From a virus, in the IMG/VR virus record IMGVR_UViG_3300031576_000080, positions 1 through 47,947 of that record: 47,947 bases of DNA. One strand, 5' to 3'. Positions 16,133 through 17,095 of this stretch are shown here, piece after piece. Each line of letters opens with the position of its first letter. The first letter of the stretch is position 1. The notes beneath the pieces were generated by a model that had not been told where the DNA came from, ran no database searches, and worked only from the letters and a program-made list of their open reading frames with translations. A program made the translations under genes and the position numbers.

Positions 16133-17095
16133 ATGAGAGTCCTGTCTCTATTCGGCAGCATTGGTGGCCTGGACCTCGGCCTCGAATGGGCAGGGATGAC
16201 GACGGTCGGGCAGGTGGAGATCAACCCCATCCGCCGCGAGTGGCTCGAAGATCACTGGCCAGGGCTGTGGCGGTGGGACGACATTACGACGCTGAACCCC
16301 GCCGATTGTCCGGCGTGCGACCTGATCGCTGGGGGCTTCCCCTGCCAGGACGTGAGCTGCGCGGGCAAGGGCGCCGGACTGGACGGCGAAAGGTCTGGGC
16401 TGTGGCGTGAAATGCGACGAATCATCGACACTGTTCGACCCCGTTGGATCGTTGCTGAGAACGTCCCTGCTATCCGCACTCGCGGAGCTGACCGCGTCAT
16501 CGGCGATCTGGAAGCACTCGGTTACGCCGTCTGGCCGCTCGTGGTGGGTGCTGACGACGTTGGGGCGCCGCACAGGCGGAAGCGGGTCTTCTTTGTGGCC
16601 CACGGCGAACTGCATGGACGGCGAGCGTGCGGCGGAGTCGAAGGCGACCAAGGACTCGCGGGGCAGCGGGGGCGTGAACCTGCGGGAAGCGTGCAACTGG
16701 CCGGAGGCGTTGGGCACGCTGACGGGTGTGGCAAGATGGGCGACGCCGACGAAGATGGACGGCGGGGCGATCTCTCGCGGGGGAGACCGCAAGTCGGAAC
16801 TGCTGCTCGGTGGCCAAGTCCACCAAGGTGCGAACAGCACGAATGGGAAGCCCCGCGGCTCACTCAATTTCGAGTGGGTGAGCCAACTTCAGGGTCTCCC
16901 GCGCGACTGGTTGATATCGTCCAACAGTGTACTGATTGGGACGATGCTCAAGCCCAGGCGTGGGCGTCGCGGAACAAAGTGAGGATCGACCGCGCGCACA
17001 ACCGCGAAGCTCTCCGCGCTTTGGACGATTCGGTCGTCCCCCAAGTCGCCTACGTGATCGGCCGGGCGATACTGGCCGTGGAAGGTAAACCGTGA
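16133..17095 (+). CDS. C5-cytosine DNA methyltransferase (second)
   Basis: A 320-residue Dcm-family protein from ATG 16133. Motif I is [19 protein letters not shown] (4-22), motif [16 protein letters not shown] with nucleophile Cys71, motif VI AENVPA (108-113), motif [16 protein letters not shown], and motif [18 protein letters not shown] near the end (GNSVVPQ in most relatives; here DDSVVPQ). Between VIII and X the target-recognition region is Gly/Arg-rich with low GC at third positions, because another ORF (16407-16982) uses the same DNA in a better-looking frame. The enzyme frame remains open throughout. Its stop overlaps the next methyltransferase start (GTGA). Confidence 0.85.
16407..16982 (+). 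CDS. Overlapping gene: methyltransferase-associated protein in a second frame
   Basis: A 191-residue ORF wholly inside the methyltransferase gene in another frame. Its text is protein-like: [57 protein letters not shown], and [18 protein letters not shown]. The pattern W-P-T-P..., ending S-L-N-x-x-W-V-x-x-L-x-G-x-P-x-x-W, occurs in phage proteins beside or within DNA methyltransferases. By hand count GC at third positions is above 80% here over 16590-16920. Start (GTG 16407) is uncertain. It could be a partner of the methyltransferase or a frame-shifted version of its target-recognition domain. Confidence 0.6.
   Translation: MKCDESSTLFDPVGSLLRTSLLSALAELTASSAIWKHSVTPSGRSWWVLTTLGRRTGGSGSSLWPTANCMDGERAAESKATKDSRGSGGVNLREACNWPEALGTLTGVARWATPTKMDGGAISRGGDRKSELLLGGQVHQGANSTNGKPRGSLNFEWVSQLQGLPRDWLISSNSVLIGTMLKPRRGRRGTK

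Follow-up and report, generated by a model that had tools for sequence, protein, structure and literature searches.

M.EcoHK31I is a naturally split C5 methyltransferase (PMC3439449) and consists of two polypeptides, of which the larger contains motifs I–VIII and X together with the predicted recognition domain and the smaller contains motif IX (PMC3404938). In M.AquI, the split lies before motifs IX and X, and both are in the second chain (PMC3404938). Literature searches for a phage-wide nested methyltransferase subunit gave nothing relevant. In 1995, Lee et al. reportedly found that the small subunit of M.EcoHK31I is coded within the gene of the large subunit, in another frame.

Here, we analysed a methyltransferase locus in a 47,947-nt stretch of viral DNA (IMG/VR record IMGVR_UViG_3300031576_000080, positions 1 to 47,947; hereafter the window). 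The locus shares with M.EcoHK31I (YGGCCR) the division of the motifs between a large chain (I–VIII and X) and a small chain (IX), and also the nesting of the small-chain gene in another frame, which is +1 here and is said to apply to M.EcoHK31I. However, as far as published descriptions can be compared, the predicted target-recognition domain (TRD) of M.EcoHK31I belongs to the large subunit, whereas selection and codon usage place the TRD of the present family in the small one. M.AquI (CYCGRG) is likewise split into two chains close to the recognition region; its second chain carries motif X as well as IX, whereas X is here in frame A with I–VIII. The large catalytic domain of the alpha chain matches M.HhaI and M.HaeIII, with motif X weakly included, but their TRD and motif IX are in the same chain and not in the +1 frame. 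Alpha corresponds to the families phrog_363 and phrog_116 and beta to phrog_1008; phrog_363 and phrog_1008 are both labelled DNA methyltransferase, and the alpha and beta families are listed separately, without sign of nesting. A system of this kind is already known; here it is unusually widespread and cleanly partitioned.

Results

A second reading frame is nested in the methyltransferase gene

The features of the locus are as follows:

16133..17095, plus strand: frame A CDS for the alpha subunit, a C5-cytosine methyltransferase of 320 aa when started at ATG16133, with motifs I–VIII and X
GTG16058, plus strand: alternative upstream alpha start, also possible; the methyltransferase ORF is then 16058–17095
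16151–16168, plus strand: alpha motif I, reads FGSIGG
16340..16348, plus strand: alpha motif IV (PCQ), invariant in alignment A7 and the reference point for the beta start
16457..16465, plus strand: alpha motif VI (ENV), frame A, sharing its bases with the predicted beta helix-strand-strand element
16562..16603, plus strand: alpha motif VIII, end of the catalytic domain
16616..16909, plus strand: frame A linker over the recognition stretch, 98 residues, predicted disordered, joining motif VIII to motif X
17012..17080, plus strand: alpha motif X, in frame A (family LRALGNAVVPQ)
16407..16982, plus strand: ORF for the beta subunit in the +1 frame (frame B), with the recognition region and motif IX
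16602..16862, plus strand: target-recognition region, in frame B by codon usage, family dN/dS and text match to the relatives L095 and Tweety
16863..16920, plus strand: motif IX, in frame B (family LNPxWVEWLMGFPxGWT)

The alpha protein was matched by PF00145 (E 7e-37, residues 26–182 of the GTG16058 version) and by phrog_363 (residues 23–342). The frame B ORF runs exactly from GTG16407 to TGA16982 (191 aa), inside 16058–17095, and contains the peptides quoted in a first-pass annotation of this DNA. Motifs I–VIII and X are in frame A, motifs I and X being off consensus, while motif IX is missing from the large chain and was found in the separate smaller ORF. The single-chain layout, in which IX is in the frame of VIII and X, was not found in the window. 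Downstream, a gene for an N4/N6-type DNA methyltransferase (17092–18516; PF01555, phrog_67) overlaps the alpha stop by 4 bases and is followed by the terminase large subunit gene (18771–20864).

We then scored codon usage along the locus, with the score trained on 29 other ORFs of the window (controls: 0.22 ± 0.11 in their own frame and −0.31 ± 0.17 in the +1 frame). Frame A scored +0.26 and frame B −0.05 over motifs VI–VIII; the values were −0.05 and +0.18 over the recognition region, −0.13 and +0.24 over motif IX, and +0.21 and −0.23 after motif IX. These scores, and likewise base composition by codon position, show that the coding signal moves from frame A (up to motif VIII) to frame B (16602–16920) and back to frame A (motif X). 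The GC bias at third positions that had been noted earlier for the second frame held for 16613–16972, where GC was richest at A-frame position 1 (= B position 3). When the codons of one frame were shuffled in the window alone, the probability of the other frame staying open was 0.07 for B given A and 0.03 for A given B. Frame openness is thus weak evidence in the window alone and overwhelming across 160 loci. The recognition text of the window frame B also matched that of L095, and the differences between the two, by B codon position, were 0.16/0.30/0.49. Taken together, the codon signal and the comparison with L095 suggest that frame B of the window has been under selection until recently or still is.

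The nested layout is common to viral and bacterial relatives

The B text was in the +1 frame of all 10 IMG/VR loci retrieved with the alpha protein. Frame-specific profiles retrieved larger locus sets, and these loci were scored by HMMs representing the catalytic domain, motif IX and motif X. Among the best-scoring 80 loci per set, with some contigs present twice and the counts therefore not unbiased frequencies, 72/80 viral loci retrieved by the catalytic motifs alone had IX in +1 with VIII and X in frame 0 of the same ORF, the catalytic domain was upstream in 80/80 viral loci retrieved by the B pattern and the layout was nested in 78 of these, and 80 of the 82 loci of a further set (80 from bacterial genomes of many phyla and two phage records) were nested. 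In total, about 230 homologous loci carry the B text in +1, both frames are open in the homologues, and the layout is conserved in the family down to 37% GC. These results collectively demonstrate that the nested layout is common to hundreds of related viral and bacterial genes.

Paenibacillus phage Bloom has the two frames annotated as overlapping CDS with a +1 offset, E. coli K1 phages likewise have a pair of overlapping CDS, and the beta of relatives matches phrog_1008. The window B had no direct PHROG match, beta had no family in Pfam or NCBIfam, and the window B used as a direct query against phages and viral contigs gave nothing significant; B searches succeeded only after B profiles had been built from relatives.

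Two variations on the layout were seen. In L001 (approximately 3296–3600), B stops after motif IX and is followed by an ORF with HNH-like text (CEQCGNTEKLQRHHRTY...CQGCHASEH), and alpha reads through the entire insertion to motif X; the insertion is possibly a homing endonuclease in the beta tail. Three rare relatives (L093, L137 and L214) resemble M.AquI in that their first ORF closes past motif VIII or within the TRD, and their second contains the TRD, IX and X, as if the overlap had been resolved.

Frame B holds the enzyme's own recognition region and motif IX

The B recognition text consists of WPTPxA repeats. In the enzymes of mycobacteriophages Tweety and Babsiella and in L116, the LLPTPxA... 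and ...WVEWLMGxP..W text shares one reading frame with the catalytic domain and motif X, and both PF00145 and TIGR00675 extend through the single-chain protein of L116 (PF00145 positions 2–322). The recognition stretch of the window B aligned with the in-line stretch of Tweety (z about 7). Because these single-chain relatives read the same text in line, we conclude that frame B encodes the TRD and motif IX of the same enzyme. The name motif IX for LNPxWVEWLMGFPxGWT was assigned from its position between the TRD and X and from its pattern; a profile of the region gave no sequence match to solved methyltransferases, and when PDB was searched, neither the full B profile nor the one restricted to motif IX found more than chance matches.

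In L011 (Babsiella gp54/gp55), L012 (Tweety gp72) and L116, fossil beta recognition text was found in the +1 frame, 5′ of the in-line TRD–IX, and Babsiella gp55 is such leftover beta text annotated as a gene. The pattern suggests that the single-chain enzymes may derive from the nested form by a frameshift fusion inside the TRD repeats.

Predicted structures of the two chains

AlphaFold modelled residues 1–161 and the motif X helix of the window alpha with confidence, and the folds nearest to the model were M.HaeIII/M.HhaI. Residues 162–259 were predicted to be disordered (pLDDT < 50, without secondary structure), and this disorder coincides exactly with the B recognition stretch. The model of B was poor overall (mean 62.7); it contains a helix-strand-strand element (beta residues 12–51, 16440–16559, pLDDT 75–92) over motifs VI–VIII, and the second modelled part is a helix at motif IX.

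Relatives carry beta start signals and the window copy departs from them

In relatives, the B frame usually opens shortly 5′ of motif IV. Start codons about 50 nt 5′ of motif IV (the −60 to −46 bin) were preceded by a Shine–Dalgarno sequence in 42/79 cases, and a start so preceded was present in frame B of 109/159 loci, versus 46 and 21 in the other frames. A second cluster of starts lies about 43–45 nt after motif IV; in L064, L108 and L130, for example, this possible start is the ATG of 'MTxTSG', which often follows a purine-rich stretch from the alpha GKRRG codons. To judge from these two clusters, the relatives might make a longer and a shorter beta.

In the window, two stops precede the open B frame:

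16323..16325, plus strand: B-frame stop TGA, blocks the family's usual beta start
16353..16355, plus strand: second B-frame stop TGA, directly 5′ of the open B frame

Frame B is open from 16356 and its first start codon is GTG16407, before which no Shine–Dalgarno sequence was found. The window alpha also departs from residues conserved in at least 90% of relatives, at G9 in motif I (FGSIGG versus FSGIGG) and at G298–N299 in motif X (17021–17029; LDDSVVP versus LGNAVVP). The activity of the window copy is therefore uncertain, because the usual beta start is blocked and two alpha motifs deviate. A less probable reading, which nevertheless deserves weight, is that the window copy of a genuine family is decaying, so that beta is no longer made here and the enzyme is inactive or alpha-only. 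The lost canonical start, the change of GN to DD in motif X and of FSGIGG to FGSIGG in motif I, and a divergent motif IX (LQGLP) would all fit such decay, but both window frames are still open, codon usage over the TRD and IX still marks B as a coding frame, and the changes relative to L095 are mostly at third positions of B.

Selection is partitioned between the frames

To measure selection on each frame, we classed each change by its effect in both frames in 50 pairs. The resulting dN/dS values for A and B, which are simple counts with no multiple-hit correction from pairs independent in loci and not fully in phylogeny, were:

5′ of the beta start: A 0.13–0.15, B 0.79–0.95
beta start to just past motif IV: A 0.15–0.24, B 0.44–0.71
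onward to motif VIII: A 0.19–0.24, B 0.37–0.45
recognition region: A 0.80–0.98 (confidence intervals include 1), B 0.16–0.20
motif IX: A 0.48–0.75, B 0.13–0.20
after B (motif X side): A 0.12, B 0.65–0.66

Double selection is confined to motifs IV–VIII and, weakly for A, motif IX, while 5′ of the beta start and in motif X frame A is selected and B little or not. The first-pass annotation had proposed that both frames are selected over ~575 bp; this held within those limits but not in the recognition region, the one sub-region of the overlap in which purifying selection was seen in a single frame, B. Its proposal that another protein is encoded over the target-recognition stretch is correct.

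For A-silent changes that stop B, the values were 0.07 and 0.06 in the motif IV–VIII overlap versus 0.46 and 0.45 outside B (before and after it, respectively), which indicates that B is translated from well 5′ of the recognition region. B-silent changes that stop A had a value of 0.07 in the recognition region versus 0.46 for other B-silent changes, and A stops in this stretch were depleted about 6-fold in relatives. Since A stops are depleted while A dN/dS is near 1, we conclude that A is translated through the recognition region and that its sequence there is immaterial; the methyltransferase frame is read through, as had been claimed, with motifs I–VIII and X on either side. In the recognition core, substitutions were concentrated at A position 1 (= B position 3), with 0.376 there, 0.151 at position 2 and 0.125 at position 3; before and after the overlap they fell at A position 3. 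Furthermore, synonymous shuffling gave a median probability of A being open given B of about 0.006 in loci below 60% GC, and the shuffle tests agreed with the dual-frame dN/dS picture.

These data bear on three further explanations. In programmed frameshifting, ribosomes on the alpha message would slip to +1 once past motif VIII, possibly returning ahead of X, to make one chain in which VIII, the TRD, IX and X are joined as in the single-chain relatives. We regard this as improbable: two shifts would be needed to regain motif X, B is open for about 100 codons 5′ of the proposed slippage point in almost every locus, including AT-rich ones, stop-creating changes in that stretch are several-fold depleted, beta starts in relatives are preceded by Shine–Dalgarno sequences, and beta is annotated as a separate CDS in several phages. 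Still less probable is the earlier proposal that a new, unrelated gene overprints the recognition region and that both frames are functional over the whole overlap. Both frames are indeed selected over VI–VIII and partly over IX, and the second coding frame stands; however, B carries the methyltransferase's own recognition text and motif IX, as the single-chain relatives show, and A is unconstrained and predicted disordered in the recognition stretch, so that the proposed roles are reversed. Finally, that frame B is a productless chance shadow of a GC-rich methyltransferase gene, as the unremarkable openness of the window B (P = 0.07) and the tendency of GC-rich +1 frames to stay open might suggest, is hardly credible and already refuted for the family by its conservation down to 37% GC, by B dN/dS of 0.16–0.20 and by the conservation of A positions 2 and 3 in the recognition region, the opposite of a shadow pattern. 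A sequencing frameshift was rejected along with the chance shadow ORF and programmed frameshifting on the layout counts, the codon-position pattern, the Shine–Dalgarno starts and dual-frame dN/dS.

Discussion

We consider it very likely that the locus encodes a nested two-subunit C5-cytosine DNA methyltransferase, with alpha in frame A and a separate beta in frame B. We observed how the frames are laid out and conserved, how selection is divided between them and, in relatives, that beta has start signals of its own; the account of the enzyme built on these observations is as follows. Frame A would give alpha, comprising the SAM-binding and catalytic domain (motifs I–VIII), a linker of free sequence and a motif X helix folded back against the SAM site. 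Frame B would give beta as a separate polypeptide, with the helix-strand-strand element, the target-recognition repeats and motif IX. The two chains would then assemble into one methyltransferase, beta providing the missing small domain, and this two-chain enzyme would presumably be specific in the DNA that it modifies. It may serve the phage for orphan modification, probably as protection from restriction by the host.

With less assurance, we favour the view that the recognition domain lies wholly in the nested beta, that the alpha sequence laid over it is a content-free linker kept open only to reach motif X, and that the N-terminal helix-strand-strand element of beta originated as an overprint on motifs VI–VIII. 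If this is true, changes confined to beta could alter the recognition sequence, and the M.EcoHK31I recognition domain, which has been published as part of the large chain, would have to be reassigned.

If the two-subunit reading is correct, a large share of C5 methyltransferases of this type in phages and prophages carry a single-gene annotation, while the working enzyme needs a hidden second chain that is responsible for DNA recognition, and cloning, annotation or specificity prediction from the visible ORF alone would fail. The family would also be a clear natural case of a gene held open without amino-acid constraint for the use of the other frame, with the switch points mapped.
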